Shown piece after piece: positions 2-53,482 of a stretch of DNA of 64,000 nt. The DNA is from Microbispora sp. H11081 (lineage in GTDB: Bacteria; Actinomycetota; Actinomycetes; Streptosporangiales; Streptosporangiaceae): contig NZ_JABBWV010000001.1 of NCBI RefSeq assembly GCF_012999535.1, positions 992,001-1,056,000 on the forward strand, given 5' to 3'. A program made the translations under genes and the position numbers. A model generated the notes under the pieces. It did no database searches and was not told the DNA's origin. It saw nothing but the letters and a program-made list of their open reading frames with translations. Each line of letters opens with the position of its first letter. Position 1 is the first letter of the stretch.

Positions 2-13663
<13,662 letters not shown>

Positions 13664-13723: not shown

Positions 13724-24275
<10,552 letters not shown>

Positions 24276-24283
<8 letters not shown>

Positions 24284-32458: not shown

Positions 32459-33450
32459 AGACGTCCCCGGCCGGGGTGGCGGAGGCGCGGAACCGCCGCC
32501 GCTCCGGCCAGGGCCGCCGGACGCTGGTGCGCCTCGTGCTGGTGCGCCTGGCCGCCTCGGCCGGCGTGCTCTGGGGCGCCGTGACGGTGACGTTCGTGCT
32601 GCTGCAGGTCATGCCGGGCAGCACCGCCGACGTCCTGCTCGCGCGCTCCTCGGTGAGCCCGGAGGTGCGGGCCGGGATCGTCGCACAGTACGGGCTCGAC
32701 GACCCGCTCCCGGTGCAGTACCTCACCTATCTCGGCCGGATCGCCCGCGGCGAGTTCGGCGAGTCGTACGTCCTGCGCAGGCCGGTGTGGGACGAGATCG
32801 CCGCCCAGCTTCCCGGCACGCTGCTGCTGGTGGCGACCACCCTGCTGGCCACGGTCGTCGCCTCGGTCGTGCTCGGGGTGGTGAGCGCCAACCGCCGGGC
32901 GTGGGTGCGCTCGCTGTTCGCGTCGGCCGAGTCGCTGGTCGTGGCCCTGCCCCCCTTCTGGCTCGGGCTGCTGCTGCTGACCGTCTTCTCCTGCACGCTG
33001 CACTGGTTCCCGGCCATCGGGTCCTCCTCGCCGTCCGGGCTGGTCCTGCCGACGGCCGCTCTCGCAGCCGGGCCGGCGGCCGTGGTGGCCGGCGTGCTGC
33101 GGGAGGGCCTGCTGCGCGCGATGGACGAGCCGTTCGTGGTGACCGCGCGTGCCCGGGGCATCGGCGAGGCGGCCCTGCGCCTGCGCCACGTGCTCCGCCA
33201 CGCCCTGCTCCCCGTCACCACGCTGCTCGGGTGGATCGCCGGCTCGTTGATCGGCGGCGCGGTGATCATCGAGATCGTCTTCTCCCGGCAGGGCATCGGG
33301 CGGCTGGCGCTGTCGGCCGTGGCGAACAAGGACATGCCCATGGTCATCGCGGTCGTCCTCGTGACGGCGGCCGCGTTCGTGCTGGTGACGATCGCGGTCG
33401 ACATCCTCACCTGGGTGATCGACCCCCGGACGCGCGACGCGGGGAGGTAG
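32443..33450 (+). CDS. ABC transporter permease (DppB/OppB type)
   Basis: 335 residues. ATG 32443 overlaps the end of the lipoprotein gene by 16 bases and gives the expected start: a basic N-terminus, then the first membrane segment (about 33-55, ending in VTFVLLQVMPG). Several hydrophobic segments follow, with the inner-membrane loop motif TARARGIGEAALRLRHVLRH (EAA-like) before the last helices. The PGS/PGD signature after helix 1 and the length fit the first permease of oligopeptide systems. Partners are the permease at 33454 and the ATPase at 34251. Confidence 0.92.
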   Translation: MAGVLKTSPAGVAEARNRRRSGQGRRTLVRLVLVRLAASAGVLWGAVTVTFVLLQVMPGSTADVLLARSSVSPEVRAGIVAQYGLDDPLPVQYLTYLGRIARGEFGESYVLRRPVWDEIAAQLPGTLLLVATTLLATVVASVVLGVVSANRRAWVRSLFASAESLVVALPPFWLGLLLLTVFSCTLHWFPAIGSSSPSGLVLPTAALAAGPAAVVAGVLREGLLRAMDEPFVVTARARGIGEAALRLRHVLRHALLPVTTLLGWIAGSLIGGAVIIEIVFSRQGIGRLALSAVANKDMPMVIAVVLVTAAAFVLVTIAVDILTWVIDPRTRDAGR

Positions 33451-33453
33451 CCG

Positions 33454-34254
33454 ATGCCAAGGAGCCTGTGGCCGTGGGCGGCCGTGCTGCTGGTGCTGGC
33501 CGTCATGGCGGCGGCGCCGTCGCTGTTCACCGGGATCGACCCGGACGCGGCCGACCTGGACGCCCCGCTGCGCCCGCCGAGCGCCGAGCACTGGCTCGGC
33601 ACCGACCAGAACGGCCGCGATCTGTACGCCCGGATCGTGTACGGCGCCCGGCCGTCCCTGCTCATCGGGACCGGCGCGGTCCTGCTGGCGCTCGCGGCGG
33701 GGGTTCTGATCGGGGTCGCCGCCGCCCAGCTCGGCCGTGTCGCCGACCAGGTGCTCAGCCGGTCGCTCGACGTGGTCATGTCGGTCCCCGGTCTTCTGCT
33801 GGTGTTCCTCGTCGTGGCCGTCCTCGGGCCGGGAGGCGGCACCGCCGCGATAGGGCTCGCCGTGGTCTCCATGCCGGGCTTCGCCCGGGTGGCGCGCGGC
33901 GAGGTGATCCGCCTGCGCTCGGCCCAGTACGTCGAGGCCGCCCACGGGTTCGGCTGGTCGCGCGCCCAGGTGGTGGCCAGGCACGTGCTGCCCAACGCGG
34001 CGGGCCCGGTCCTGGCGCTCGCCACCGTGAGCCTCGGCGCGATGATCGTCGCGAGTTCCTCGCTGAGCTTCGTGGGCCTCGGCCCGCGGCCGCCGACGGC
34101 CGAGTGGGGGGCCATGCTCTCCGAAAGCCGCGAGTTTCTCGCACTCGCCTGGTGGCCCGCCGTGTTCCCCGGGGTCGCCATCACGGTCGCGGTGCTGGCC
34201 GTCACGTTCGTCGGGCAGCACCTCAACCGCCGCGTCGAGGGGAGGCACTCGTGA
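33454..34254 (+). CDS. ABC transporter permease (DppC/OppC type)
   Basis: 266 residues, short for the family (about 280-300) because the N-terminal cytoplasmic part is trimmed. ATG follows ggggagg, 3 bases after the previous stop. The hallmark H-W-L-G-T-D-Q-N-G-R-D is at about 46-56, and the EAA loop (YVEAAHGFGWSRAQVVARH) sits near 170, followed by LPNA. About five membrane segments are visible. The stop overlaps the GTG of the ATPase gene (GTGA), indicating coupled translation. Confidence 0.92.
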   Translation: MPRSLWPWAAVLLVLAVMAAAPSLFTGIDPDAADLDAPLRPPSAEHWLGTDQNGRDLYARIVYGARPSLLIGTGAVLLALAAGVLIGVAAAQLGRVADQVLSRSLDVVMSVPGLLLVFLVVAVLGPGGGTAAIGLAVVSMPGFARVARGEVIRLRSAQYVEAAHGFGWSRAQVVARHVLPNAAGPVLALATVSLGAMIVASSSLSFVGLGPRPPTAEWGAMLSESREFLALAWWPAVFPGVAITVAVLAVTFVGQHLNRRVEGRHS

Positions 34255-35918
34255 CGCCGGCCGGCCCTCTTGTCGCCGTACGGGACCTCACGGTGCGCTT
34301 CCCCGTCCGCCACGGAATGGTGGAGGCGGTGCGGGGCGTGTCGTTCCGCGTCGACCGCGGGCAGGTCGTCGCGATCGTCGGCGAGTCGGGGTCGGGCAAG
34401 AGCGTCACGGCCCGCAGCCTCGCCGGCCTCGCGGGGGACGGCGCACGGGTCGGCGCAGCCGAGTTGACGTTCGACGGAGTCGACCTCCGCGAGGTGCGGG
34501 GCCGGGCCTGGCGCGCGCTGCGCGGGCGCCGGGTGGGGTTCGTCCTGCAGGACGCGCTCGGCTCGCTCGACCCGCTGCGCCGCGTGGGCGCGGAGGTCGC
34601 CGAGCCGCTGCGGGCTCACCGGATCGTCCCGGGACGGCAGGTGGACGCCGAGGTCGTGCGGCTGCTCGGCGAGGCGGGGATCCCGGCTCCCGAGAGCCGG
34701 GCGCGGCAGTACCCCCACCAGCTCTCCGGAGGGCTGCGCCAGCGCGCGCTCATCGCCTCGGCGCTCGCCGCGCGGCCCGACCTGCTCATCGCCGACGAGC
34801 CGACGACGGCCCTGGACGCGACCGTGCAGCGTCAGGTGCTCGCGCTGCTGCGCGAGCGCGTCGGCGACGGCACCGCGGTGCTTCTCATCAGCCACGATCT
34901 CGGCGTGGTCGCCGAGATCGCCGACCACGTGTACGTGATGAAGGACGGGCTGTTCGTGGAGGACGGCCCGGCCGCCGCGGTGCTGGAGTCGCCGTCGCAC
35001 CCGTACACGAGGACGCTCGTGGGCGCGGTCGCCGGGCATGGGCGCGGGGCGCGCCCGGCGGGCTCCGCCGAGCCCCGGAGCGCGGGGACGGCCCGCGAGG
35101 TGCTGCGGGCCGAGGGCCTGGTCAAGCGCTACACCCTGCCGGGGCGTGGCGAGTTCACGGCCGTGGAGGACGTGTCGGTCACGGTCGGAGCCGGGGAGAC
35201 CCTGGGCGTCGTCGGCGAGTCCGGCTCGGGCAAGACCACCCTCGGCCGGCTGCTCATGGGCCTGCTGGAACCGGACGCCGGGCGCGTGCTGCTCGACGGG
35301 CGGCCATGGGACGGCCTGCGCGGCGCCGAACGGCGCGCGGCACGGCGCGGGGTACAGATGATCTACCAGCATCCGCTGTCGTCCTTCGATCCCCGCTACA
35401 CGGCCCGGCAGATCCTGGAGGAGCCGCTGCGGGCGGACGGCACGCCGCGCGAGGAGCGCGACCGGCGGGTGGCGTCGCTGCTGGAGCACGTCGGCCTCGC
35501 CCCGGACGTGCTCGACCGGCGGGCCAGGGAGCTGTCCGGGGGGCAGCGGCAGCGCCTGGCCATCGCCCGCGCGCTCGCTCCCGCACCGCAGGTCATCGTC
35601 TGCGACGAGCCGGTCTCCGCGCTCGACGCGCCCATCCAGGCCCAGGTGCTCGACGTGCTCACCGACGTCCAGGAGCGGCTCGGCGTCGCGTACGTGTTCG
35701 TCTCCCACGACCTCGGCGTCATCCGGCGGCTGAGCCACCGGGTGGTGGTGATGAAAGACGGCCGGGTGGTGGAGAGCGGCGAATTGGAAAAGGTATTCGA
35801 CCATCCCGAGCATCCGTACACGAAAGCGCTCATCGACGCGGTTCCCCGTTTCGCGTGGCGTTCCAGCGGAGTTTCCAGCGGAGGTTCGAAAAGGGGGGCG
35901 AGCGTGACCGGCGCATAA
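34251..35918 (+). CDS. Dual ABC ATPase (DppD-DppF type fusion)
   Basis: 555 residues from GTG 34251, overlapping the permease stop by 4 bases. Two complete nucleotide-binding domains lie in one chain. Domain 1 (about 1-265): Walker A GESGSGKS, signature LSGGLRQR, Walker B LLIADEPTTALD. Domain 2 (about 283-535): Walker A GESGSGKT, signature LSGGQRQR, Walker B VIVCDEPVSALD. The fusion replaces the usual separate D and F subunits, unlike the second transporter in this window, where they are separate genes. It powers the lipoprotein/permease system encoded just upstream. The next gene is 119 bases away with its own likely promoter. Confidence 0.94.
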   Translation: MTPAGPLVAVRDLTVRFPVRHGMVEAVRGVSFRVDRGQVVAIVGESGSGKSVTARSLAGLAGDGARVGAAELTFDGVDLREVRGRAWRALRGRRVGFVLQDALGSLDPLRRVGAEVAEPLRAHRIVPGRQVDAEVVRLLGEAGIPAPESRARQYPHQLSGGLRQRALIASALAARPDLLIADEPTTALDATVQRQVLALLRERVGDGTAVLLISHDLGVVAEIADHVYVMKDGLFVEDGPAAAVLESPSHPYTRTLVGAVAGHGRGARPAGSAEPRSAGTAREVLRAEGLVKRYTLPGRGEFTAVEDVSVTVGAGETLGVVGESGSGKTTLGRLLMGLLEPDAGRVLLDGRPWDGLRGAERRAARRGVQMIYQHPLSSFDPRYTARQILEEPLRADGTPREERDRRVASLLEHVGLAPDVLDRRARELSGGQRQRLAIARALAPAPQVIVCDEPVSALDAPIQAQVLDVLTDVQERLGVAYVFVSHDLGVIRRLSHRVVVMKDGRVVESGELEKVFDHPEHPYTKALIDAVPRFAWRSSGVSSGGSKRGASVTGA

Positions 35919-36037: not shown

Positions 36038-37225
36038 ATGACGGAAGCTCCGCCGTACCCCCAGAAGCGCACCTGCCCCTACGAGCCGCCCGCCGGCTAC
36101 CGCGAGATCGCGGAGCGGGGACCGGTGCTCAAGGTGACCCTCTTCGACGGTCGCGAGGCATGGATGGTGACGGGCTACCGGGAGTCCCGGGAGATCCTCA
36201 CCCACCCGAACCTGTCCTCGCAGCGCACCCATCCCGGGTTCCCCATCGTGGCGCCCCGGTTCCGCTCGCAGATCGCCCGCACGCTGGCGCTCATCGCGAT
36301 GGATCCGCCCGTCCACGACGTGTACCGCCGGTATCTCAACCCCCACTTCAGCCTCAAGTCGGTCCGCCGGATGCGGCCGGAGGTCGAGCGGATCGTCGCG
36401 GGCTTCGTCGACCGGATCGTCGAGCACGGCCCGCCGGCCGACCTGGTGCCGCTGCTCGCGGTGCCGCTGCCGTCCCTGGTCATCTGCCGCCACCTCGGTG
36501 TGCCGTACGAGGACCACGACTTCTTCCAGGACGCCAGCGGCAAGGTGATGCTCGGCACCGAGGAGGAGTCGGCGACGGCGGCGCAGGACCTGTTCGACTA
36601 CATCGACCGGCTGGTGGCCGAGCAGATCAAGGACCCGTCCGACGGGCTGCTCGGCACGCTGGTCCGCGAGCGCGTCGTCACCGGCGACATCGGCCACGAC
36701 GAGCTGGTGTCGATCGCGCTGGTGCTGCTCATCGCCGCGCACGAGACCACCTCCTCCTCGCTGGCCCTGGGCGTCATCACGCTGCTGGAGCACCCCGAGC
36801 AGCTCGCGCTGCTGCGCGAGGACCCCGAGCGGCTCCCCGGCGCGGTCGAGGAACTCCTGCGCTACATCGCCACCACCGACCTCGTCGCCACCCGGGTCGC
36901 GAAGGGCGACATCGAGATCGCCGGCCACCTCATCCGCGAGGGGGAGGGCGTGCTCGTCTCCGGGACGCTGGCCAACCGCGACGCGGCCGTGCATGAGCGC
37001 GCCGACGAGCTCGACGTCCTGCGCGAGGACAGCCACCACCTCACCTTCGGCTTCGGCATCCACCAGTGCCTCGGCCAGAACCTCGCCCGGATGGAGCTGG
37101 AGGTCGCTTTCCAGGAGCTGTTCACCCGGATCCCCGGGATCCGGCTGGCCGCCCCGGTCCCCGAACTGCCCATCCTCGGCGCGGGGACGGTGCAGCGGGT
37201 GCTCCGGCTCCCGGTCGCGTGGTGA
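36038..37225 (+). CDS. Cytochrome P450 (first of two)
   Basis: 395 residues, a normal size for soluble actinobacterial P450s. The I-helix motif is LLIAAHETTSS (about 230-240), the ExxR motif is EELLR (about 271), and the heme loop is FGFGIHQCLG with the Cys ligand near 346. The ferredoxin gene follows with a GTGA overlap, so it is probably the electron donor. The two P450s here share the phrase GFGIHQCLGQNLARMELE and similar N-termini (PYPQKRTCP / AYPQDRACP), so they likely arose by duplication. Spirotetronate clusters use such enzymes for epoxidation or hydroxylation of the cyclised core (AbyV and AbyX, from memory). The substrate cannot be read from sequence. Confidence 0.95.
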   Translation: MTEAPPYPQKRTCPYEPPAGYREIAERGPVLKVTLFDGREAWMVTGYRESREILTHPNLSSQRTHPGFPIVAPRFRSQIARTLALIAMDPPVHDVYRRYLNPHFSLKSVRRMRPEVERIVAGFVDRIVEHGPPADLVPLLAVPLPSLVICRHLGVPYEDHDFFQDASGKVMLGTEEESATAAQDLFDYIDRLVAEQIKDPSDGLLGTLVRERVVTGDIGHDELVSIALVLLIAAHETTSSSLALGVITLLEHPEQLALLREDPERLPGAVEELLRYIATTDLVATRVAKGDIEIAGHLIREGEGVLVSGTLANRDAAVHERADELDVLREDSHHLTFGFGIHQCLGQNLARMELEVAFQELFTRIPGIRLAAPVPELPILGAGTVQRVLRLPVAW

Positions 37226-37437
37226 CGGCCGTGTGGGTGTCGGCCGACCAGGAGCGCTGCATCAGCGGCGGCCGCTGCATGGCCGCCACATCCGAGGTCT
37301 TCGACCAGGACGAGGAAGGCCTCGTCGTGGTCCTCACCCCGCAGGTCGCGCCGGAGCTGGAGGACCGGGTCCGGAAGGCGGCCTACCTCTGCCCGTCACG
37401 GGCGATCAGGATCGGCGACGGCCCCACCCAGGGCTGA
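37222..37437 (+). CDS. Ferredoxin, 3Fe-4S type (P450 partner)
   Basis: 71 residues from GTG 37222, whose last two bases form the P450 stop. The pattern is that of P450-associated ferredoxins: CISGGRC near the N-terminus, FDQDEEGLVVVL in the middle, and LCPSRAI near the C-terminus. It should pass electrons to the adjacent P450; no ferredoxin reductase gene is seen in the window. Confidence 0.92.
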   Translation: MTAVWVSADQERCISGGRCMAATSEVFDQDEEGLVVVLTPQVAPELEDRVRKAAYLCPSRAIRIGDGPTQG

Positions 37438-37499: not shown

Positions 37500-38657
37500 A
37501 TGACAGAAACGGCACGGGAAGCCTCTCCTCTTCCCTCGCTGACCGGAATGAGATTCGTCGCGGCGTTCCTCGTGTTCGTCTGCCACGCCTGCGTGCTGGG
37601 GTACTTCCACCAGGACGTCGCGGCCTCGCTCCAGACCTACGCCTTCACGTCCGGCTGGCTCGGCGTGGAGTTCTTCTTCGTGCTGAGCGGGTTCGTGCTG
37701 ACCTGGTCGGTCCGGGAGGGCGAGGCGCGCACCCGCCTGTGGCGGCGGCGGCTCGTCAAGGTCTACCCCAACCACGTCGTCACCTGGCTCGCCGCCCTGG
37801 GGCTCGCCCTCTGGGCGGGCCAGTCCGTCGACCTGCTCACAGCCCTGCCGAGCCTGCTGCTCGTGCACACCTGGCTGCCCCGGGCCGAATTCATCCTCTC
37901 GATCAACGTGGTCACCTGGTCGCTCGCCTGCGACGTGCTGTTCTACCTGGCGTTCCCGTTCCTGTACCGGCTGGTCCGGCGCATCCCGGCCGCCCGGCTG
38001 TGGCCGGCGGCCTGCGCGGTCGTCGTGGTGATCGCCGTGCTGCCCGCGATCGCCCTCGCCGCCCTGCCGGGGACGCCGAAGCTGCCCGGCCAGGAGATGT
38101 CGCTCACCCAGAACTGGTTCCTCGTGTCGTTCCCGCCGACCAGGGCGCTGGACTTCGTCCTCGGCATCCTGATGGCCAGGATCGTGGTCGACGGCCGGTG
38201 GATCCGGCTGGGCTGGGCGCCGGCGCTGGCGATCCTCGCCGCCGCCTTCGGCCTGCAGATGTTCCTGTGGCCGACCGTCTACGGGCTCACCGCGCCCGTC
38301 GCGCTGCCGATCGCCCTGCTGATCGCCGCGGTCGCCGTCGCCGACCACCGGGGCCGCTTCAGCCCGTTCCGCTCCCGCCCCCTCGTCTGGCTCGGCGGCA
38401 TCTCGTACGCCTCCTACCTCGTCCACTTCCTGGTCCTGACGTACTCCCACGTCGCACTCGGGGCCGACCGGACATGGGACGCGCCGTCCGCCCTGTTCCT
38501 CGTCACCGCCCTGTTCGGGGTGACGACGCTGCTGGCCTGGGGGCTGACGCGGTTCGTCGAGGAGCCGGCGATGCGGGCCTGGGCCGGCGTGCGGCCCGCC
38601 ACCGGGAACGGAGCCGCGCCGCTGCCGGGGGCCCGCTCGCCCGAGCCCACCGCCTGA
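37500..38657 (+). CDS. Membrane acyltransferase 3 family (OafA/YrhL-like)
   Basis: 385 residues. ATG 37500 follows a weak cggacgga and begins just before the family's first helix (LPSLTGMRFVAAFLVFVCHA, with the conserved R and H). About ten hydrophobic segments follow, with FFFVLSGFVLTWS (about 60-72) and GGISYASYLVH near the C-terminus, all typical of integral membrane O-acyltransferases. In polyketide loci these enzymes usually acylate a sugar or hydroxyl group. Its place between two P450-ferredoxin pairs suggests acylation of a hydroxyl made by a P450. An alternative idea is acylation of the tetronate hydroxymethyl before elimination, but the known enzyme for that step belongs to a different family. 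Confidence 0.9.
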   Translation: MTETAREASPLPSLTGMRFVAAFLVFVCHACVLGYFHQDVAASLQTYAFTSGWLGVEFFFVLSGFVLTWSVREGEARTRLWRRRLVKVYPNHVVTWLAALGLALWAGQSVDLLTALPSLLLVHTWLPRAEFILSINVVTWSLACDVLFYLAFPFLYRLVRRIPAARLWPAACAVVVVIAVLPAIALAALPGTPKLPGQEMSLTQNWFLVSFPPTRALDFVLGILMARIVVDGRWIRLGWAPALAILAAAFGLQMFLWPTVYGLTAPVALPIALLIAAVAVADHRGRFSPFRSRPLVWLGGISYASYLVHFLVLTYSHVALGADRTWDAPSALFLVTALFGVTTLLAWGLTRFVEEPAMRAWAGVRPATGNGAAPLPGARSPEPTA

Positions 38658-38719: not shown

Positions 38720-39958
38720 GTGAACGCTCCGACGACTACCGCGAACGAGGATCTGTTCGCCTATCCGCAGGACCGGGCCTGCCCCTGGCAGCCGTCCCCG
38801 GGCTACCAGGACCTGGGGCGGCAGGGGCCGCTGCACCGGGTCCGGCTCTGGGACGGCAGGTGGATCTGGATGGTCACCGGCCACAGCCAGGCCCGCCGGC
38901 TGCTCGCCGACCCGCGTATGTCGGCCGACCGGTCCCGGGACGACTTCCCCGCCGTCCTTCCCCGGCTGGACGCGCCCATCTTCAAGCCCATCGCGATCAT
39001 CGGGTTCGACCCGCCCGTCCACGACGTGCACCGCCGGCTGCTCGCCCCGGACTTCAGCCTCAAGCAGGTGCGCGCCATGCGCCCGCGCGTGGAGGACCTC
39101 GCCCGGCGGCTGGTGGCGGACATGCTCCAGGCGGGGCCGCCGGTGGACCTCGTCGAGGCGTACGCGCTGCCCATCCCCTCGATGGTGATCTCCGAACTGC
39201 TCGGCGTGCCGTACGACGACCACGAGTTCTTCGAGGCGAAGACGGTGGGGCTGCTGCAGGCCAAGTCGGCCGAGGACGCGGAGAGGGCGGGCCGGGAGCT
39301 GTGGGACTACCTCGACGGGCTGATCACTCGCAAGGAGCGCGAGCCCGGCGGCGCCGGCGTGCTGAGCCGCCTCGCGGGCGAGGTCGACGAGGACGGCGAC
39401 CTCACCCGCGAGGACCTGCTGCGCATCGCGCTCGCGCTGCTCATCGGCGGGCACGACACGACCTCCCAGATGATCGCGCTGGGCGTCGTCACGCTGCTGG
39501 AGCATCCCGGCCAGCTCGCCGCGCTCCGCGCGGACCCGGACGTCCTGCCCGCCGCCGTCGACGAACTGCTGCGTCTGGTCTCCATCACCGACGTCTCCGG
39601 CGTCCGGGTGGCGACCGAGGACATCGAGATCGACGGGGAGGTGATCAGGGCCGGGGAGGGCGTCCTGGTCTCGTCCTCGATGACCAACCGCGACCCCGGC
39701 GTCTTCCCACGGCCGTACGAGTTCGACGTCCACCGCACCCGGGGCGGGAACGCGGCGTCGGGCCGCCAGCACCTCACGTTCGGGTTCGGCATCCACCAGT
39801 GCCTGGGGCAGAACCTCGCCCGCATGGAGCTGGAGGTCGCCTTCTCCGTCCTGTTCGAGGGGATACCGGGCCTGCGGCTCGGCGTTCCGCTGGAGGCACT
39901 GCCCTCGCGCAGCGGCGGCACGATGCAGGGCGTCCACACCCTGCCGGTCGAGTGGTGA
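38720..39958 (+). CDS. Cytochrome P450 (second of two)
   Basis: 412 residues from GTG 38720; aagga and gagg lie upstream. No better start exists because the frame upstream runs through the acyltransferase gene. I-helix LLIGGHDTTSQ (about 243-253), ExxR as DELLR (about 284), heme loop FGFGIHQCLG (Cys about 362). Closely related to the P450 at 36038. The ferredoxin gene is 28 bases downstream. Confidence 0.95.
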   Translation: MNAPTTTANEDLFAYPQDRACPWQPSPGYQDLGRQGPLHRVRLWDGRWIWMVTGHSQARRLLADPRMSADRSRDDFPAVLPRLDAPIFKPIAIIGFDPPVHDVHRRLLAPDFSLKQVRAMRPRVEDLARRLVADMLQAGPPVDLVEAYALPIPSMVISELLGVPYDDHEFFEAKTVGLLQAKSAEDAERAGRELWDYLDGLITRKEREPGGAGVLSRLAGEVDEDGDLTREDLLRIALALLIGGHDTTSQMIALGVVTLLEHPGQLAALRADPDVLPAAVDELLRLVSITDVSGVRVATEDIEIDGEVIRAGEGVLVSSSMTNRDPGVFPRPYEFDVHRTRGGNAASGRQHLTFGFGIHQCLGQNLARMELEVAFSVLFEGIPGLRLGVPLEALPSRSGGTMQGVHTLPVEW

Positions 39959-39986: not shown

Positions 39987-40244
39987 ATGAAGGTGACCGC
40001 CGACCGGAGCCGCTGCATGGCCGCCGGGCACTGCGCGATCAGCGCGCCGGACGTCTTCGACCACGGCGAGGACGGGCTGGTGGTGGTGCTGGACACGGAG
40101 CCGGGGGAGGAGCGGCGCCGGGAGGTGGAGCTGGCGGAGGACCTGTGCCCGTCCCGTGCCATCGCCATCCTCCGCACCGCCGCGGTGGCGGGCCCGCCCG
40201 ACGCGGGCACCCCGGACACCCCGGACACCGCGTCCGCGGGCTGA
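39987..40244 (+). CDS. Ferredoxin, 3Fe-4S type (second)
   Basis: 85 residues, ATG after gggagagggaggag. CMAAGHC and LCPSRAI give the three-Cys pattern; FDHGEDGLVVVL is the usual middle segment. The C-terminal Pro/Thr-rich tail (GTPDTPDT) is extra compared with the first ferredoxin. It ends the + strand tailoring operon and is followed by a strong hairpin. Confidence 0.92.
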   Translation: MKVTADRSRCMAAGHCAISAPDVFDHGEDGLVVVLDTEPGEERRREVELAEDLCPSRAIAILRTAAVAGPPDAGTPDTPDTASAG

Positions 40245-40331: not shown

Positions 40332-41330
40332 TCAGAGGTCGACGAAACGCATGCTCTGCTCGTTCCAGCGGGTTCCGTGGACCTCGTCCGCCGGCACGGC
40401 GGCCTCGGCCGCCGCCAGGTCGGCCCGGGTCAGGCTCAGGAACACCGCGTCGAGGTTCTCCTCCAGATGGGCCCTTCGCTTCGCGCCGGGGATCGGGACG
40501 ACGTCCGCTCCCTGGTGGTGCAGCCAGGCCAGCGCGAGCTGGGCCGAAGTGATCCGCAACTCCTCGGCGAGCTCGCCCAGGCGGTCGGCGAGGGGCAGGT
40601 TGCGGGCGAGGTTCTCCGCCGAGAAGCGGGGCAGGCCGAAGCTCCGGAAGTCGCCGTCGTCCAACTGCGCGCGGGAGCGGACCGCGCCGGCGAGGAAGCC
40701 CCGGCCGAGCGGCGCGTACGGCACCACTGCGATCCCCAGTTCCCGGCACACGGGGAGGACGCGCCGCTCGATGTCCCTCGACCACAGCGACCACTCCGTC
40801 TGCAAGGCGGCGATCGGGGCCACGGCGTGGGCGCGCCTGATGGTCTCCGGCGCCGCCTCGCACAGCCCGATCTCGCGCACCTTCCCGGCGGCCACGAGCT
40901 CCGCCATCGCGCCGACCGTCTCCTCGACGCCGACCTCGGTGTCGACCCGGGTCAGGTAGAGCAGGTCGACGTGGTCGAGACCGAGCCGCCGCAGGGAGTC
41001 GTCGCACGCCCGCCGCACGTACGGCGCGTCTCCCCGAACCCCGGAGCCGACGCCGGGGCCGGGGCGCACGACGCCGAACTTGGTCGCCACCACCGCCGAC
41101 TCGCGGCGCCCGGCCACGGCGCGGCCGACCAGTTCCTCGTTGGCGCCGTGGCCGTACACGTCGGCGGTGTCGAGCAGGGTCGCGCCGAGGTCGAGAGCGC
41201 GCCGGATGGTCGCGACCGCCTCGGCCTCCGAGACGGGACCGTAGAACTCGGACATGCCGAGACAGCCGAGTCCCTGCGCCCCGACCGTCAGGGAGCCGAT
41301 CCTGCGGGCGGGCAGCCGGGTGAGAGTCAT
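40332..41330 (-). CDS. Aldo/keto reductase family protein with catalytic His replaced by Thr
   Basis: 332 residues. The AKR fold signatures are present: [34 protein letters not shown], and the C-terminal cofactor segment ([17 protein letters not shown]). Three of the four catalytic residues are in place (Asp54, Tyr59, Lys84), but the position of the active-site His (normally ...YxHRVD) reads YLTRVD, with Thr127. In other AKRs a change here alters the reaction, for example His to Glu in steroid 5-beta reductase. ATG 41330 follows gaggga. The gene lies 12 bases after the AbyU-like gene and is probably co-transcribed with it, so it may act on the polyketide. Confidence 0.9.
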
Positions 41331-41342
41331 GGCGTCCCTCCG

Positions 41343-41888
41343 CTACCGGTAGACCACGATCGCGGACTCGTACGCGTCGTGGGCCTCCTTGACCAGCGGG
41401 CGGAACCAGCGGGCGCCCACCGCCCCGCGCAGCGGCCCGGCGACGACGACGGCCGGGAAGTACGCGGCCTCGCCTGCGGTGAGCCGCGCGTCGTCCACCA
41501 GGCCGCCGGAGCGGATGACGTTGCCGTCCCGCAGCCGGATCTCCTCGCCGAAGTACGCGATGAAGTGGCCGTCGTGCTCCTGCTTGTAGAGCATGCGGCC
41601 GGCGCCGGTCGTCTCGCCTAGCGGCTCTCCGCCGGGGCCGAAGATCTCCAGCCTGACGGTGGCGAAGTCGTTCTCGGTCGGGGTCGTGCCGGTGGGGTCG
41701 GCGTTGTTGGAGCGGTACTCCACGACCTTCTCGGTGAGGTCGCGCAGGATGAGCGACCGGCCGGGCCGGGCGAGGGCCCCCACCCGGTCCGAGGTGGTCT
41801 CCGGCGGCGCGGCCAGGAACGGCACCAGGAAGGAGGTCACCGCTTCGTGCACCGGCGCGATCCGGTCGGACAGCGCGCGCAGATCCAT
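41343..41888 (-). CDS. AbyU-like/allene oxide cyclase-barrel protein, candidate spirotetronate [4+2] cyclase
   Basis: 181 residues. I use the ATG at 41888 (MDLRAL) because gggagg lies just upstream; an ATG 24 bases earlier would put that site inside the gene. The C-terminal two thirds alternate hydrophobic and polar residues like a small beta-barrel. From about residue 70: FATVRLEIFGPGGEPLGE, then GAGRMLYKQEHDGHFIAYFG, then EIRLRDGNVIRSGGLVD, then YFPAVVVAGPLRGAVGARWF. This order (strand with xGxxxG, dG..xxY..E.I.L.DG.I...G, then a G.L.G.xG..R finish) follows the pattern I remember for AbyU, the abyssomicin Diels-Alderase. It has no signal peptide or membrane segment. The first 50 residues have no counterpart I recognise. 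Setting: directly downstream of the LAL regulator in a locus whose chain would end as a tetronate with a triene, the substrate type of AbyU. The assignment rests on remembered patterns and needs a structural search. Confidence 0.65.
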   Translation of the reverse strand: MDLRALSDRIAPVHEAVTSFLVPFLAAPPETTSDRVGALARPGRSLILRDLTEKVVEYRSNNADPTGTTPTENDFATVRLEIFGPGGEPLGETTGAGRMLYKQEHDGHFIAYFGEEIRLRDGNVIRSGGLVDDARLTAGEAAYFPAVVVAGPLRGAVGARWFRPLVKEAHDAYESAIVVYR

Positions 41889-41948: not shown

Positions 41949-44753
41949 CTAAAAGCGCGTCGCGTATTCCTGTCCTGCCGTCTTCCGCTGAATCGCCAGC
42001 GCGAGTTCCATGCGCGAGCTGACCCCGGTCTTGCGGTAGATGCGAGTCAGATGGACGTCGACCGTCCGCATGCTTATCGTGAGGCGGTCGGCGATGTCCC
42101 GCCGTTTCATCCCCGAGCAGATGAGCAACGCGATCTCGCGTTCCCGATGGGTCAGCCGGCCGAACACCTCCAGCCGGCCGAACATCTCCTGCCGCGCCCC
42201 GGGAGGCGGCGTGGGGGCCGCGGGTGGCCCGCCGGTCCGCCGGCCCAGCCAGTCGAGCAGGGTCACCGCCTCCGACCGCCGCGCGATCTCGGCGGCGAGC
42301 CGGATCGTGTGGGCCGCCTGCTCGGCGCGGCCCTGCTCGCCGAGCGCCCGCGCCGCCTGCCCGAGGGCGTAGCTCTGCTCCACCGGCATGCCGACCGAGG
42401 CGAACAGGTCGGCCGCCTCGCGGTAACACCGCTCCGCCTCGCCCGGAGATCCCTGCACGCGCAGCAGATGGCCGCGGGTCATGGCGGCGTACGCCAGGTT
42501 GGGCGGCACGGGCACCGCCCGGGCGTGCTCCTGGGCCCGGCGCGCCCAGTCGTCCAGGGGCATGCCGGCGTCCATCCCGGCGGCGCAGAGCGTCTCCCAG
42601 ATCGTCAGGCGGCTGCCCGAAGGGATCACCCGCATGTCGGCGCCCCGGCCCTCGTTGAGCAGGAGCGTGACGCAGTGGGTCGGGTCGCCGTCCAGCCAGG
42701 CGCACTTGGCGAGCGTCAGCGCGGCGATCGACGCGCTGCCGTTGACGTGTGCGCCGGTCAGCGCCTGCTGCGCCAGCGCCTGCTGGGCGAGCGACTTGGC
42801 CCGCCCGCTGCCCGGGGGCTGCATCCACACCTCGGCGGCGGATTTCAGCGCCACCGCCTGAGCGTGGCGCAGCGGGTTGCCCGCATCCGACTCGACGATG
42901 GCCTCGTCGGCCGCGTCCCTGGCCTGCCTGAGCCGGCCGAGATGGCGCTCGGCCTCGCTGAGCAGAACCAGGAGCGTCGGCAGCAGGAACGGCCGCTGAC
43001 GCCGCCGGGCGATCTCCACGCCGCGCCGGACCTGCCGCTGGGCGTCGGCGCCCCGGCCGAGGTAGATGTAGGCGAGCCCGGCCAGCAGCAGGCACTCGAC
43101 GTGCCGCGCCATCAGGTGTTCGGGGGTGCGGTCCAGCGACTCGGCGGCGGCGTCGGCCTCGGCCAGGGCCCGGTCCACGTCCCCGGAGGCCACCGACGCG
43201 AGCGCGCGGAGCCCGAGGAGCCCCGCGGCGACCGGGTCGTCGCCCGCGGCCCGCGCCGCTCGCAGCGCCGGCTCCGTCTCGGCCCGGCCGGCCGTACGGC
43301 CCTGCATCGACACGCGGAAGCCGCGCGCGAGGACCAGGCGCGGCCAGACAGGGGAGTCGCGCAGGTCGGGCCGCCTGATGAGGTCGCCGAGCAGGTCGAG
43401 CGTCTGCACGTCCTGGCTGAGCACGCCCTCGACCACCGAGACGAACGCGACCCGCTCCGCCAGCGCCGCCGGGTCCATGGCCCCGCCCGACTCGTGCACC
43501 ACGAACAGCAGGTCGCGGCTCTCGGCCAGCCGTCCCAGGCGGCCGAATGCCGTGCTGAGCGCCAGCCGGGCGCGCACTCCGATCTCGGTCGAGGGAGGCG
43601 CCTCGCCGAGCACCGGCGTGAGCCAGGAGACGCACTCGCTGACGTCGGTCTCCATGATCTCCTGGGACGCGTCCACGATCTGCGCCAGTTCGCTCGCCCG
43701 GGCCCTCGACAGTGAGCTGACCAGGTGGAAGCCGATCTGGGTGCCGGCCTGCCCGCGGGCCGACAGCCGGTGCAGCGCCCGCTGGTGGGCCAGCGCGGCC
43801 CAGCAGGGGTCGATCATCTGGCGCAGCAGCGTGCCGAAGACCTCGTCCCTGATCGAGAAGAGCGTCCCGATGGGCTCCACCCGCACCAGGTCCCGGCGGA
43901 CGAGGCGGCGCAGCGCGGCGGACGCCACGAGCGGGTCGAGTTCGGCGACCTCGGCGAGCAGGTCCGCGTCGAACCGCGAGCGCAGGATCGCCGCCGCGTT
44001 CAGCGCGTACCGCTCGGTGAGCGCCAGGTCGCGCACCTCGCTCATGACGGCGAACTCGTACGGCGCCGGCGCGCCGTCGCCGCCCGAGCGGGCGCTGTGT
44101 TCCAGGGCCTGCAGCGCCCGGAGGTTGAAGGGGTTCCCGCCGCTGCGGTGGCGGAGCTCGTACGGCGCGGGGACGGGCGACATGGCGAGCATCTGCTCGT
44201 CGTCGAGTGGTCCCAGTTCGATTCGCACCGTGCGTCCGAAGGCCGCGGTCACGGACACCGCCTCGGCCAGCCGGCCGGGGGTCTGGCGCGGGCGCAGCGA
44301 GACGACCACGTCGACCAGGGGCACGGGGTCGCCCCCGGCGATGCCCACCAGTTCGCCGATCGTCTGGTCGTCGGCGAGGTGGGCGTCCTCGATGACCACG
44401 AGCTCGCGGTCGGGCCGGTGGCGCCGGCGGCCGAGGCCGACCACGGGGCGGTCGCCCGCCTCGTGGTCGCCGGCCCGGCGCGCCCGCCACAGCAGCTTCC
44501 TGACGGCGTTCATCGCCCGCTCCCGGTCGCCCGAGGAACATCGGTAGACGGTGGCGGGCAGGGCGGTCCACTGACGCTCCCGGACGAGCGCCGACAACAG
44601 GTGCGTCTTCCCGGACCCCGGCTCGCCGAGGACGGCGATGAGACGCCCCTCGGAGCCGGGCTCCTGGGTCAGGGACCGGAGCAGGTCGAACTCGGCCGTG
44701 CGCACAACCCTGGTCGATGCGGCGTCGGTCAGTCTGTCTTCGTACACGCTCAT
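41949..44753 (-). CDS. LuxR-type LAL transcriptional regulator (ATPase plus HTH)
   Basis: 934 residues from the ATG at 44753 (MSVYEDRL). Upstream in-frame starts reach 44876; none has a strong ribosome site, so the start is uncertain. P-loop GEPGSGKT is near residue 53, Walker B LVVIEDAH near 130, a long TPR-like helical middle, and a C-terminal LuxR HTH (LTHREREIALLICSGMKRRD and following). This is the large ATP-binding regulator family that commonly activates macrolide and spirotetronate clusters (AbyH in abyssomicin, from memory). It probably activates the PKS operon and may head an operon with the AbyU-like and reductase genes, which follow after 60 bases. Confidence 0.93.
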   Translation of the reverse strand: MSVYEDRLTDAASTRVVRTAEFDLLRSLTQEPGSEGRLIAVLGEPGSGKTHLLSALVRERQWTALPATVYRCSSGDRERAMNAVRKLLWRARRAGDHEAGDRPVVGLGRRRHRPDRELVVIEDAHLADDQTIGELVGIAGGDPVPLVDVVVSLRPRQTPGRLAEAVSVTAAFGRTVRIELGPLDDEQMLAMSPVPAPYELRHRSGGNPFNLRALQALEHSARSGGDGAPAPYEFAVMSEVRDLALTERYALNAAAILRSRFDADLLAEVAELDPLVASAALRRLVRRDLVRVEPIGTLFSIRDEVFGTLLRQMIDPCWAALAHQRALHRLSARGQAGTQIGFHLVSSLSRARASELAQIVDASQEIMETDVSECVSWLTPVLGEAPPSTEIGVRARLALSTAFGRLGRLAESRDLLFVVHESGGAMDPAALAERVAFVSVVEGVLSQDVQTLDLLGDLIRRPDLRDSPVWPRLVLARGFRVSMQGRTAGRAETEPALRAARAAGDDPVAAGLLGLRALASVASGDVDRALAEADAAAESLDRTPEHLMARHVECLLLAGLAYIYLGRGADAQRQVRRGVEIARRRQRPFLLPTLLVLLSEAERHLGRLRQARDAADEAIVESDAGNPLRHAQAVALKSAAEVWMQPPGSGRAKSLAQQALAQQALTGAHVNGSASIAALTLAKCAWLDGDPTHCVTLLLNEGRGADMRVIPSGSRLTIWETLCAAGMDAGMPLDDWARRAQEHARAVPVPPNLAYAAMTRGHLLRVQGSPGEAERCYREAADLFASVGMPVEQSYALGQAARALGEQGRAEQAAHTIRLAAEIARRSEAVTLLDWLGRRTGGPPAAPTPPPGARQEMFGRLEVFGRLTHREREIALLICSGMKRRDIADRLTISMRTVDVHLTRIYRKTGVSSRMELALAIQRKTAGQEYATRF

Positions 44754-44980
44754 TGTCTGTGACGACCCCAGGCATTTGGTGACCGAAAAGAGCTTTCCGG
44801 CCCGAATCGCGCTCCTTACTCGCATCTGGGCCGAAACTTCCAGTGGGAGGGCGGAGGTTCGGGCGCCGGTCTCCATCGATCCGGCTGTGCGGAAGGGGAT
44901 GCTTCTTACTCTACATTACCTAGCTGCTTTGTTGGTTTTTTCGCTGTGGCACGAAGGGCTGGGGTCGATTTTGTGAAAAG
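44754..44980. promoter_or_regulatory. AT-rich upstream region of the LAL gene
   Basis: This stretch separates the LAL start from the stop of tetR. Bases 44900-44945 are the most AT-rich segment for many kilobases (ttcttactctacattacc, ttggttttttcg), consistent with a promoter firing on the - strand. I cannot fix -35/-10 boxes with confidence. If LAL starts at 44876, part of this is coding. Confidence 0.45.
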
Positions 44981-45586
44981 TCAGTCCCGCGTGGTGATGC
45001 CCTCCAGGGCCAGTTCCAGGAAGCGGGCGCTGCCGTCACGGTCTGGGGTGGCCTGTTCGCGCACCCAGGCGGCGCCGCTGAGGAGGTCGAACAGCTCGTC
45101 GGGGGTCAGGTCGGGCCGCACCCTGCCGGCGGCCTGGGCGGCGCGCAGCAGGTCCGCGCCGCTGCGGTGCATCGCGCTGCACATGGTGTGGGAGGGCGTG
45201 CCCTCGTCGTACATACTCTGCGCGAGGATGCCGACCAGGCCGCGGAAGGTGCTGAAGTGGACCACCGCCTCGCGCATCCAGGCGATCAGCGCGTCGAGCG
45301 GGTCGGGCCCGGCGGTCAGCCGCTCCGCGTGGGCGACGAGGTTCTCCAGGCCGTCCCGGGTCGCGGCCTCGACGAGCGAGGCCCGGGTGGGGAAGTGCCG
45401 GTACAGCGTGCCGATCGCCACGCCGGCCTGGCTCGCGATGTCCTCCAGGGAGGCGTCGGCCCCGGCGCTCTCGAACGCCTTACGGGCCGCGGCCAGGATC
45501 GCGTCGTAGTTGCGCCTGCCGTCGGCCCGCTTGGGGCGCTGGGCGATGTAGGGCTTGCCGTCCACCAGGTACCTCCCGCTTGACAT
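44981..45586 (-). CDS. TetR-family repressor
   Basis: 201 residues. The N-terminal HTH (about 27-73) contains YDAILAAARKAF, SLEDIASQAGVAIGTLYRHF and PTRASLVEA, standard for TetR proteins; the C-terminal ligand-binding half is helical. It is transcribed away from the MFS gene, with three copies of one palindrome in the 121-base gap, one directly touching its start codon. This arrangement indicates self-repression plus repression of the MFS pump, relieved by a small molecule. The same palindrome lies before the flavin monooxygenase gene at 29.6 kb, so the regulon probably includes a tailoring step. Confidence 0.93.
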   Translation of the reverse strand: MSSGRYLVDGKPYIAQRPKRADGRRNYDAILAAARKAFESAGADASLEDIASQAGVAIGTLYRHFPTRASLVEAATRDGLENLVAHAERLTAGPDPLDALIAWMREAVVHFSTFRGLVGILAQSMYDEGTPSHTMCSAMHRSGADLLRAAQAAGRVRPDLTPDELFDLLSGAAWVREQATPDRDGSARFLELALEGITTRD

Positions 45587-45707: not shown

Positions 45708-47138
45708 ATGACCACCGAAAGCGTCCCAGGCGACGTCTCGTCCGACGCGCCCCGGGCCGACCGCGCCTGGGCCCTCGTGCTCGCGGCGATCGTCGGTGCG
45801 GAGTTCATGCTCCAGTTCGACGGCACGATCGTGAACGTCGCGCTCCCGACCCTCCAGTCCGACCTCCATCTGTCGGTGGCGGGAGGATCGTGGGTGCCGA
45901 ACGGCTTCTTCCTCGCCTTCGGCGGCCTCCTGCTGTTCGCGGGCCGCCTCGGCGACGTGCTCGGGCACCGCAGGGTCTTCCTCTCGGGGATAGGACTGGT
46001 CGTGGCGGCCTCTCTGATCGCCGGGCTCGCGCCGAACCTGGAGGTGCTGCTCGCCGGCCGCGTCCTGCAGGGTGTCGGCGCGGCGATCGCCGGTCCGACC
46101 GGGCTGGCGCTGCTGGCGATCGTCTTCGAGGGGGAGCGGCAGCAGCGGGCCTTCGGCCTCTACTCCACGGTGACCGGTCTCGGCGCCTCAGCCGGCATGG
46201 TGCTCGGCGGCCTGCTCACGTGGGCGGGGGACTGGCGCTGGAGCCTGCTGGTGAACGTGCCCGTCGGGCTGGTCATCATCGCGATCGCCGCCCGCGCCCT
46301 CGGCCTGCGGGACGAGGCGACCCGGTCCCGCCCGCTCGGCCTGCCGAGCGCGCTGCTCAGCACCGCCACCCTCGCCGCCGCCGTGTACGGCCTCGTCCAT
46401 GCCGCGGAGAAGAGCTGGGGCGACCGCTGGACGCTGACCGCCCTCGGCGCCGCGGTCGTGCTGGGCGCGGTACTTCTGCTGGTGGACAGGCGGGCCGCCG
46501 AGCCGCTGCTGCCCCTGGCCGTCTTCGCAGGCCGTGAGCGGGCCGGCGCCTTCCTCGCCCTGCTGCTGCTCGCGGCCGTGCTCACGAGTTTCCTGATCTA
46601 CCTGGTCCAGTATCTCCAGGGCGTGCTGGGCCTCAACGCGCTGCAGAGCGGCCTGGCCATCCTGCCCTTCGGCCTGGCGCTGCTCGTCAGCACCCAGATC
46701 ATCACCAAGTACATCGCCACGATCGGCCTGAAGACACGTGCCGTGGCCGGCCTGCTCGTGGTGCTGGCCGGGGTGGCCTGGCTGACCCGCCTCGACGGCG
46801 GCAGCACCTACGCCGGCGGCGTGCTCCCGGCCCTCATCGTCATGGGGCTCGGCGTCGGCGTGGCGATCATCCCGTTCAACATGATCGTCCTGACCACCGC
46901 GCCGCAGGAGTACGCCGGGGTCACCGCGGGCGTGCTGCAGACGGCGCTCACGATCGGCGGCTCGCTCGGCCTGGCCGCGATGCTGATCCCGCTCACGCGG
47001 GGCGCGGGTGGTCTCGCCGAGACCATCTCGTCGGTGTTCGTCTGGGCCTGCGGCGCCCTGGTGATCGCCCTGCTCGTCGCGCTGGTCTTCTGGTACCGCC
47101 CCGGCGCGCGGGGGGCCACACCCGCCGCCGGGGGCTGA
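45708..47138 (+). CDS. MFS drug efflux transporter, DHA2 (14-TM) family
   Basis: 476 residues with about 14 hydrophobic segments. ATG follows ggaggttcc. Signatures: FDGTIVNVALPTLQSDL in helix 1, GRLGDVLGHRRVF in the loop between helices 2 and 3, and GRVLQGVGAAIAGPTGLALL in helix 4, as in EmrB/QacA-type exporters. It is divergent from tetR and carries the TetR palindromes in its promoter, so it is probably induced by the cluster product or an intermediate and gives self-resistance (AbyD type, from memory). Confidence 0.94.
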   Translation: MTTESVPGDVSSDAPRADRAWALVLAAIVGAEFMLQFDGTIVNVALPTLQSDLHLSVAGGSWVPNGFFLAFGGLLLFAGRLGDVLGHRRVFLSGIGLVVAASLIAGLAPNLEVLLAGRVLQGVGAAIAGPTGLALLAIVFEGERQQRAFGLYSTVTGLGASAGMVLGGLLTWAGDWRWSLLVNVPVGLVIIAIAARALGLRDEATRSRPLGLPSALLSTATLAAAVYGLVHAAEKSWGDRWTLTALGAAVVLGAVLLLVDRRAAEPLLPLAVFAGRERAGAFLALLLLAAVLTSFLIYLVQYLQGVLGLNALQSGLAILPFGLALLVSTQIITKYIATIGLKTRAVAGLLVVLAGVAWLTRLDGGSTYAGGVLPALIVMGLGVGVAIIPFNMIVLTTAPQEYAGVTAGVLQTALTIGGSLGLAAMLIPLTRGAGGLAETISSVFVWACGALVIALLVALVFWYRPGARGATPAAGG

Positions 47139-47214: not shown

Positions 47215-47973
47215 TCATCCCGCGATGGCGAGGTCGGCGTCGGCGGAGAGGATCGCGAACTGAAGCCGGCGCATGGTCAGGCGGGGGTCGAGCCCGAGTT
47301 CCTCCCGCAGCACCTGCCGGGCCGACTGGAAGACCTCCAGCGCCTCGGCCCGCCGCCCGGAGCGGTAGAGCGCCAGCATGAGCTGCTCGCGCAGGTTCTC
47401 GTTCAGCGGGTACTGCTCGACCCACCGCGACAGGTCGCCGATCACCTCGCGGTGCCGCCCGAGCCGCAGCGAGCACATCGCGATCGCCTCCAGGCACTCC
47501 AGCCGGACCTCCTCGGCCCAGCGGGCGAACGTGCCGACGATGAGCCCGTTGTCGATCCCGGCGAGCACCGGCCCGCGGAACAGGGCCGCGGCGGCGGCGA
47601 ACGAATCCAGCGCCCGCTCCGGGTCGCGGTCCGCCTCGTCACGGCCCGCGGCGTGCAGCCTCTGCAGGCGGAACACGTCCACCGACTCGCGGTCCGTCTC
47701 CAGCAGGTAGCCCTGGGCATGCGTCCGGATGGCCGCCCCGTCCACCGCGGGCTGTACGTGGTTCTTGCGCAGATGCGAGATGTAGACGTGCAGGGCGGCG
47801 CGAGCGCGCTTCGGGGGCTCGTTCCCCCACAGCTCGCCGAGCAACTCGTCGGTCGACACCGGCTGGTTCGCCCGGATCAGCAGCGCGGCCAGCAGCGTCT
47901 CGACCTTGGGCGCGCTGATCGTGTGTGTCTCCTCGTTCACCAGGCGTAGTGGCCCGAGCAATTCGTATCTCAT
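47215..47973 (-). CDS. SARP-family (BTAD domain) transcriptional activator
   Basis: 252 residues from ATG 47973, chosen because ggggaga precedes it and MRYELLGPLRL is the usual SARP beginning; the longer open frame upstream has no family similarity. N-terminal winged-helix DNA-binding domain (about 1-95: APKVETLLAALLIRANQPVS, ELWG, ALHVYISHLRK), then the BTAD domain (about 100-245: GYLLETDRESVDVFRL to RRLQFAILSAD). It has no ATPase or TPR extension, so it is the small type. SARPs bind direct repeats near promoters and activate antibiotic clusters. Abyssomicin has one as well (AbyI, from memory). It probably marks the right-hand edge of the polyketide locus. Confidence 0.92.
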   Translation of the reverse strand: MRYELLGPLRLVNEETHTISAPKVETLLAALLIRANQPVSTDELLGELWGNEPPKRARAALHVYISHLRKNHVQPAVDGAAIRTHAQGYLLETDRESVDVFRLQRLHAAGRDEADRDPERALDSFAAAAALFRGPVLAGIDNGLIVGTFARWAEEVRLECLEAIAMCSLRLGRHREVIGDLSRWVEQYPLNENLREQLMLALYRSGRRAEALEVFQSARQVLREELGLDPRLTMRRLQFAILSADADLAIAG

Positions 47974-53441: not shown

Positions 53442-53482
53442 GCAGGGCCGATGCGGACTGAGAACTTGGAGCGAGAGCAACG

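Follow-up and report, generated by a model that had tools for sequence, protein, structure and literature searches.

The locus raises the question whether a small gene, here called U, encodes a spirotetronate [4+2] cyclase, as the original prediction had proposed, and in which of the two abyssomicin series its product would then fall. The DNA analysed, in the following the window, is a stretch of 64,000 nucleotides at C1:992001-1056000; the genome measures 7.38 Mb and comprises 50 contigs. We conclude that U is very probably an AbmU/AbyU-type spirotetronate [4+2] cyclase (Diels–Alderase), encoded in a cluster predicted to make a type IIA abyssomicin. What the analysis shows is its family and clade, the fold predicted for it, the residues of the salt bridge, the content of the cluster and the AT and ER motifs of the polyketide synthase (PKS).

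Gene, family and predicted fold

U is an open reading frame of 181 codons on the minus strand, reading from an ATG at window position 41888 to 41343; the plus-strand frame across the same bases contains a stop. A ribosome-binding-like sequence, GGGAGG, ends 5 nt ahead of the ATG. U is flanked on one side by a LuxR-type regulator gene (ending at 41949) and on the other by an aldo/keto reductase gene (starting at 41330), all three on the same strand. The gap to the reductase gene measures 12 nt, and U and the reductase gene are probably carried on one transcript.

In an hmmscan search against Pfam the protein matched AOC_like (PF18678) over residues 56-178 with an E-value of 2.2e-34 and 118.3 bits, the cut-off being 25.9 bits. 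No other Pfam family, SnoaL and cupin included, appeared at E-values up to 10, and we therefore rejected a SnoaL, cupin or other fold; NCBIfam returned no family. When the PDB sequences were searched with phmmer, AbmU was the best match (6le0 2.1e-12, 6ymn 2.6e-12), followed by Cyc15b (9qp8, 3.4e-11) and LucK (9uuv, 1.4e-9), the AbyU entries from 2.5e-7 onwards, Cyc15 (8of7, 5e-7) and AbnU (7dvi, 7e-5). The names AbnU, Cyc15, Cyc15b and LucK are those of the Foldseek entry titles. A profile built from eight U orthologues brought the same entries to the top as the single sequence. The identity to AbmU is 26% (41/158; 47/160 or about 29% in the phmmer alignment) and that to AbyU 28% (32/115). 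Thus the family named in the original prediction was right, and AbyU was less well chosen as reference, since AbmU is the closest characterised relative by sequence. PyrI4 was not matched by phmmer at E-values up to 10 and was found by fold alone.

An AlphaFold2 model computed from six sequences is of moderate confidence (mean pLDDT 73.5, pTM 0.66). It places eight strands within residues 45-180, in agreement with the beta-barrel that had been expected, and adds two low-confidence helices at residues 3-24 and 32-40, the average pLDDT staying below 55 in every ten-residue block of residues 1-40. With this model Foldseek retrieved Tsn15 (1.0e-11), AbmU (2.9e-11), AbyU (4.3e-11), Cyc15 (4.5e-11) and AbnU (4.8e-11) at the top, and rows 1-41, with E-values from 1.0e-11 to 1.2e-7, consist of these five together with Cyc15b, LucK, PyrI4 and PloI4. 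Plant allene oxide cyclases come behind these rows, at 2.5e-5. At the level of prediction neither a fold other than an eight-stranded barrel nor a best match to SnoaL or cupin was found. Tsn15, PyrI4, PloI4, AbnU, Cyc15 and LucK belong to other pathways; they share the barrel fold with U and differ in a lower, partial or absent sequence match. The product of Tsn15 is not a spirotetronate.

Since Tsn15 heads the Foldseek rows, we considered that U might be a Tsn15-like pericyclic cyclase that forms another kind of ring, in a polyether tetronate. Tsn15, an enzyme of tetronasin biosynthesis, shows the same core fold (excerpt of PMC10946715). By sequence, however, Tsn15 reaches U only at an E-value of 0.11, the later rows near 1 being chance-like, and AbmU is nearly tied with it in Foldseek. 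The PKS described below, with a loading and six extension modules, follows the abyssomicin pattern, so that no polyether-length chain would be available to U, and it is accompanied by tetronate, transport, P450 and regulatory genes of the abm type. The weak sequence match and the abyssomicin-type cluster led us to reject a Tsn15-like function, which we regard as extremely improbable.

Relatives and the N-terminal extension

The closest named relatives of U are found in Microbispora siamensis (97% identity), Planotetraspora sp. A-T 1434 (95%) and Microbispora triticiradicis (90%), with Streptosporangium subroseum (83%) and Actinocorallia sp. API 0066 (69%) further away. Within the window's own genus, that of Microbispora siamensis, four of 15 genomes carry the domain, the window genome counted. 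In a tree of 49 rows the U clade and the AbyU clade, with 10 and five labelled rows, respectively, are each split off by a branch with a support of 100/99. AbmU sits on a long branch with unsettled bootstrap, and the tree gives it no supported placement relative to the U clade. Three of the 37 short loci offered (L028, L031 and L052) fell below the threshold and stand outside the tree, as do another 15 weak matches to which no locus belongs. In genome G612 (C26:51425-55134, L062) a less closely related homologue (53-56%) lies beside A3- and A2-like genes; A1-, A4-, A5- and PKS-like genes are found about 40 kb off on the same contig, in another cluster layout whose PKS was read in part.

U aligns over its full length, from the first methionine, with seven orthologues of 69-97% identity, and in all of them the stretch of about 45 residues that precedes the first strand of the model is kept. 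The whole-gene dN is lower than dS in all seven pairwise comparisons. The dN/dS ratio is higher in the N-terminal 45 codons than in the barrel in six of the seven pairs, namely those with both ratios defined; in the L015 pair, for instance, dN and dS are 0.218 and 0.575 in the N-terminal part and 0.075 and 0.708 in the barrel. For the L017 pair, with a dN of 0.022 and a dS of 0.000 in the N-terminal 45 codons, the zero dS leaves selection on this part not demonstrable.

The original prediction had counted about 50 extra N-terminal residues as a peculiarity of U. This is true with respect to AbyU, which has no such extension. It does not apply to AbmU, whose N-terminal stretch is of comparable length (the glutamate sealing the barrel is residue 47 there and 53 in U) and which has three helices more than AbyU (PMC11318650). 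The extension is thus an AbmU-like trait and not a new one. AbmU differs from U in carrying about 48 residues beyond the aligned part, a C-terminal tail that U lacks (218 vs 181 amino acids).

Salt bridge and pocket

We mapped the pocket numbering by alignment, in which each of the 13 named AbmU residues is matched to the correct letter. The residues were tabulated for 30 of the 49 tree rows, leaving aside seven rows that nearly duplicate others and 12 distant ones within the same bacterial family. In AbyU the barrel is sealed by the salt bridge Glu19-Arg122 (excerpt of PMC11268479), to which Glu47-Arg150 corresponds in AbmU (PMC11318650). E53 and R160 of U align with both pairs, and the aligned Glu and Arg are kept together in all 30 tabulated rows. 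By alignment, the Glu-Arg pair which closes one end of the barrel is present in U.

Eleven pocket residues of AbmU are listed in PMC11318650. Val49, Val121, Phe134 and Phe152 are unchanged in U (V55, V131, F144 and F162), Ile126 is replaced by L136, and Leu51 corresponds to V56 in one alignment and to a gap in another. The remaining five, Asp67, Tyr69, Met102, Tyr104 and Gln132, have become A76, V78, A111, F113 and A142, and this combination of Ala, Val, Ala, Phe and Ala occurs in all 10 tabulated members of the U clade. Within the clade L042 (G376) carries Thr at position 56, and L043 (G612) has Leu there and Ile at position 144. The pocket predicted for the U clade would thus be unusually greasy, and in U itself there is no polar residue at the aligned positions.

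Tyr76 of AbyU forms a hydrogen bond to the lactone carbonyl in an analogue of the substrate (excerpt of PMC11268479) and is named, together with Trp124, as a key residue (excerpt of PMC12974892). At the Tyr76 position Phe (F113 in U) is found in all 10 rows of the U clade and Tyr in each of the 10 genome rows tabulated for the AbyU clade; AbyU itself prints F in its PDB row because that entry is the Y76F mutant. Beyond the two clades AbmU and six genome rows have Tyr at this position, L049 has Leu and Cyc15b has Val, so that the tyrosine is not a defining residue of the family. The Trp124 position is F162 in U and Phe152 in AbmU. In the literature searched we found no paper on AbyU Y76F, although the PDB holds the mutant (8qfu).

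A pocket without an obvious catalytic residue could also belong to a barrel that merely binds or guards the linear tetronate while the cycloaddition takes place spontaneously. Synthetic linear precursors do cyclise thermally (PMC11318650), so that a catalyst is not strictly required. AbmU, AbyU and PyrI4, however, likewise have no explicitly conserved active-site residue in common (excerpt of PMC10946715) and act by constriction, and the dN/dS comparisons, with the lower ratios in the barrel, also speak against a non-catalytic role. We consider such a role very improbable.

The gene cluster

The genes around U are collected in Table 1. U is accompanied by three PKS genes, the tetronate genes A1-A5 and a gene for a type II thioesterase, in line with the tetronate locus that had been postulated.

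Table 1. The gene cluster around U in window positions. Gene starts and genes without a Pfam match come from a simple caller based on GC content by codon position; PKS domains were assigned by motif alone.
Gene	Position	Strand	Assignment	Basis
A1, A3, A4, A5, type II thioesterase	upstream of window		A1, KSIII; A3, ACP; A4, 2-oxoacid-dehydrogenase-type acyltransferase; A5, FrsA-like hydrolase; type II thioesterase	
B1	2..13663	+	PKS, C-terminal part (whole gene C1:986752-1005663, 6303 aa); KSQ-AT(malonyl) loading; M2 AT(methylmalonyl) KR; M3 AT(malonyl) KR; M4 AT(malonyl) KR	motif scan
B2	13724..24283	+	PKS, 3519 aa; M5 KS-AT(methylmalonyl), no KR motif; M6 KS-AT(methylmalonyl)-ER(Tyr52')-KR	motif scan
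B3	24276..27635	+	PKS, 1119 aa; M7 KS-AT(GHSIG/QAFH, read as malonyl)-ACP	Pfam, motifs
A2	27632..29533	+	FkbH-like glyceryl-S-ACP synthase, 633 aa	NCBIfam TIGR01686, E 2.8e-84
E	29631..30617	+	luciferase-like monooxygenase, MsnO8 family	NCBIfam TIGR03558
F1-F4	30962..35918	+	oligopeptide-type ABC importer, as abmF1-F4: binding protein 30962-32458; permeases 32443-33450 and 33454-34254; double ATPase 34317-35918	Pfam
P450a	36038..37225	+	candidate AbyV/AbmV-like epoxidase	Pfam p450; blastp
Ferredoxin A	37219..37437	+	ferredoxin	Pfam
Acyltransferase-3 gene	37548..38657	+	acyltransferase-3 family protein	Pfam PF01757
P450b	38720..39958	+	P450	Pfam p450
Ferredoxin B	39987..40244	+	ferredoxin	Pfam
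J	40332..41330	-	aldo/keto reductase	Pfam
U	41343..41888	-	spirotetronate [4+2] cyclase (very probable), AbmU/AbyU family, 181 aa	PF18678, AbmU match, Foldseek
H	41949..44876	-	large LuxR-type regulator, start 44876 or 44753	Pfam GerE
C	44981..45586	-	TetR regulator	Pfam
D	45708..47138	+	MFS exporter	Pfam; NCBIfam EmrB-like, under its cut-off
I	47215..47973	-	SARP regulator	Pfam BTAD

The gene types of the abm cluster recur here according to the table in the excerpt of PMC5819245, except for abmZ (flavin reductase) and abmK (PPTase), of which no counterpart was noticed among the genes scanned. The differences from abm are the gene order, the acyltransferase-3 gene and the second P450-ferredoxin pair. 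In the same table an aldo/keto reductase is present in the abm and abs clusters and absent from aby. P450a has counterparts at 50-51% in the four AbyU-type clusters that were read (blastp). The acyltransferase-3 protein has counterparts at 40-42% in four AbyU-type clusters and is absent from the abm table in the excerpt of PMC5819245. Gene I, which lies beside D in G073, G058 and G313 as well, is the probable right boundary of the cluster.

Outside the cluster the window holds a single open reading frame of 714 amino acids on the minus strand (49368-51512), in which a ketopantoate-reductase-like domain (ApbA) is fused to an amidase domain, and an apparent operon on the plus strand (51792-61566). 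The latter encodes a second oligopeptide-type ABC importer, an Asparaginase_2-family protein, a D-aminopeptidase (M55), a methylaspartate ammonia-lyase and a class III CoA-transferase, and looks like a system that takes up and degrades peptides or methylaspartate, not one for antibiotic synthesis.

Two related genomes show the cluster in pieces. In G074, of the same genus and assembled as a single contig, it is split inside the F4 ATPase gene into two parts lying 1.35 Mb apart in opposite orientations. The first part (5.75-5.80 Mb; L128, C1:5796082-5796627) runs from A1 to F3 and residues 1-182 of F4, and the second (L067, C1:7143274-7144308) holds residues 184-533 of F4, the P450s, U, H, D and I. 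The arrangement resembles one end of a large inversion, the alternative being an assembly error. In G016 (Actinocorallia) the block of U, J, H, D and I is found about 33 kb from the P450s, and a further FkbH gene, accompanied by large PKS genes (C43:249225-298486), lies about 110 kb from the abyssomicin-type genes.

The PKS and the predicted substrate

By the AT code of PMC5819245 (excerpt) the motif YASH stands for propionate and HAFH for acetate. The KSQ loading module carries HAFH, M2 GHSQG/YASH, M3 and M4 HAFH, M5 and M6 YASH, and M7 GHSIG/QAFH. A DH-like motif is present in M2, M3, M4 and M6, M5 being without a regular catalytic one. M6 has ER and KR, and M5 has no KR motif, from which a ketone at C7 would follow. 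Counting the carbons along the chain ourselves, we predict methyl groups at C12 (from M2), C6 (M5) and C4 (M6), the ketone at C7 and a C8-C13 triene. The methyl-branched diene of the original prediction is supported by the methylmalonyl AT motif of the module expected to introduce this branch. The substrate of AbmU bears methyls at C6 and C12 and that of AbyU at C4 and C6 (PMC11318650). Type IIA abyssomicins are defined by methyls at C12 and C4 and type IIB by C12 alone, and the abyssomicins M-X and ent-homoabyssomicins A and B are filed under type IIA (excerpt of PMC6100094). From its C4/C12 methyl pattern the cluster is therefore predicted to make a type IIA product.

The M2 motif separates the clusters of the two clades. 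It is YASH in all five U-clade clusters in which it could be read (G000, G058, G074, G016 and G376), a count made without G073, whose contig ends before M2, G078, G314 and G612, which were not read so far, and G313, left out because its shortened fused PKS has no M2. In the AbyU-type clusters M2 is HAFH in four of four (G039, G219, G001 and G041), and both M5 and M6 are YASH in three of three, G041 being outside this count. The methylmalonyl motif in M2 led us to reject U as an AbyU orthologue. In G313 (C1:5036587-5050692; L112, L113) B1 and B2 form one open reading frame of 4701 amino acids with only three AT motifs found and several modules missing compared with its relatives, so that the trimethyl pattern is not seen there; this is either a natural deletion or an assembly collapse of repeats.

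At position 52' of the M6 enoylreductase we find Tyr in the seven U-clade clusters read and Val in the three AbyU-type clusters read, 52' being assigned here from the distance to the NADPH motif (88 residues before it in G000). Tyr leads to a 2S (L-methyl) and Val to a 2R (D-methyl) branch, with other residues mattering too (excerpt of PMC6264292). The C4 methyl is therefore predicted to be opposite to that of the AbyU-type clusters. This inversion is uncertain, since positions 46'/47' are Met/Leu here and not the Leu/Ile typical of 2S enzymes (excerpt of PMC6264292); Pro53' is found in both groups.

Stereochemistry and proposed mechanism

By analogy with AbmU, the product of U is most likely of type II (15S). 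With an AbmU identity of 26% and AbmU unplaced in the tree, this call is based on the methyl pattern, the gene neighbourhood and Phe instead of Trp at position 162. For AbmU simulations ascribe the 15S outcome to the preferred binding of the pro-15S conformer (PMC11318650).

U could also belong to the same class of enzyme and nevertheless give type I (15R) products as AbyU does, if the C4 and C6 methyls of the substrate steer the folding and the enzyme follows. Both published substrate analogues cyclise thermally with a preference for type I, and with a C4,C6-dimethyl analogue lacking the C12 methyl AbmU, too, loses its 15S selectivity and yields the type I product (PMC11318650); the uncertainty over C4 points the same way. 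This must be set against the 52' tyrosine, which predicts the opposite C4, against the filing of compounds with the methyl pattern of the U cluster as type II (excerpt of PMC6100094) and against the well-supported separation of the U clade from AbyU. A type I AbyU orthologue in the strict sense we rejected on account of the separate clade, the long N-terminus and Phe113 and Phe162 in place of Tyr76 and Trp124. We hold type I to be unlikely. If the ER prediction is right, C4 is inverted and the substrate of U, unlike that of AbyU, need not oppose type II folding.

From this material we infer the activity of U, its substrate, the stereochemistry of its product and the order of the steps. The PKS would extend an acetyl starter to a triene chain with methyls at C12, C6 and C4, which A1, A2 and A3 would release as a hydroxymethyl tetronate; A4 and A5 would then introduce the exocyclic methylene. 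The linear tetronate would enter the barrel of U, where the exocyclic methylene may be held against the C12-methylated terminal diene, and [4+2] cycloaddition would give the spiro-cyclohexene. A P450 would then epoxidise the new ring and an internal oxygen would open the epoxide. As proposed for AbyU and AbmU, U would act through shape, i.e., by conformational constriction of the linear exomethylene tetronate, and the replacements by Ala and Val in its pocket may leave room for the extra methyl.

A more far-reaching reading, which we put forward tentatively as a serious possibility, is that the U clade lost the polar side chains at the AbmU pocket positions, including the tetronate-bonding tyrosine of AbyU, and acts by shape alone on a 4,6,12-trimethyl substrate whose C4 the PKS has inverted. 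Enzyme and assembly line would then have switched hand together towards 15S. This reading would cover at least Microbispora, Planotetraspora, Streptosporangium and Actinocorallia; the G376 member keeps Thr56 (one of 10).

Relation to known systems

The family, the fold, the cluster type and the predicted product class are already known. AbmU (neoabyssomicin/abyssomicin 2, Streptomyces koyangensis; 6LE0, 6YMN) resembles U in the fold, the N-terminal length, the Glu/Arg pair, Val, Val, Phe and Phe at four of the 11 pocket positions, the aldo/keto reductase in the cluster and the C12-methylated diene. It differs in the low identity, the five pocket residues that are Ala, Val, Ala, Phe and Ala in U, and a substrate without the additional C4 methyl predicted here. 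AbyU (abyssomicin C, Micromonospora maris; 5DYV, 7PXO) has in common with U the fold, the salt bridge and a tetronate triene with C4 and C6 methyls; apart from its separate clade and the Tyr76/Trp124 pair, it differs in a natural substrate without the C12 methyl. The abs cluster with AbsU (abyssomicins M-X, Streptomyces sp. LC-6-2), which was compared by gene table and not by sequence, shares the predicted type IIA methyls and the gene types J, G1, V, C2, D, A1-A5, B1-B3 and F1-F4 (excerpt of PMC5819245).

Genome mining has been reported for 66 genomes with such cyclases (PMC7176366), and the main text of that paper has no word starting with Microbispora, Streptosporang or Planotetraspora. Abyssomicin derivatives were reported from Microbispora rhizosphaerae TBRC6028, according to a title cited in the excerpt of PMC11341043; the literature searched held no further paper naming this species.

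What chooses between the two mirror-like abyssomicin series is under debate, and both the enzyme and the methyls of the substrate contribute (PMC11318650). The U clade offers a natural case in which C4 and C12 methyls occur together with a predicted inverted C4 and a predicted apolar pocket. Assayed on the published substrates, its members could separate enzyme control from substrate control and show whether the tyrosine hydrogen bond is needed. Clusters of the U type furthermore flag strains in which type IIA abyssomicins may be expected.
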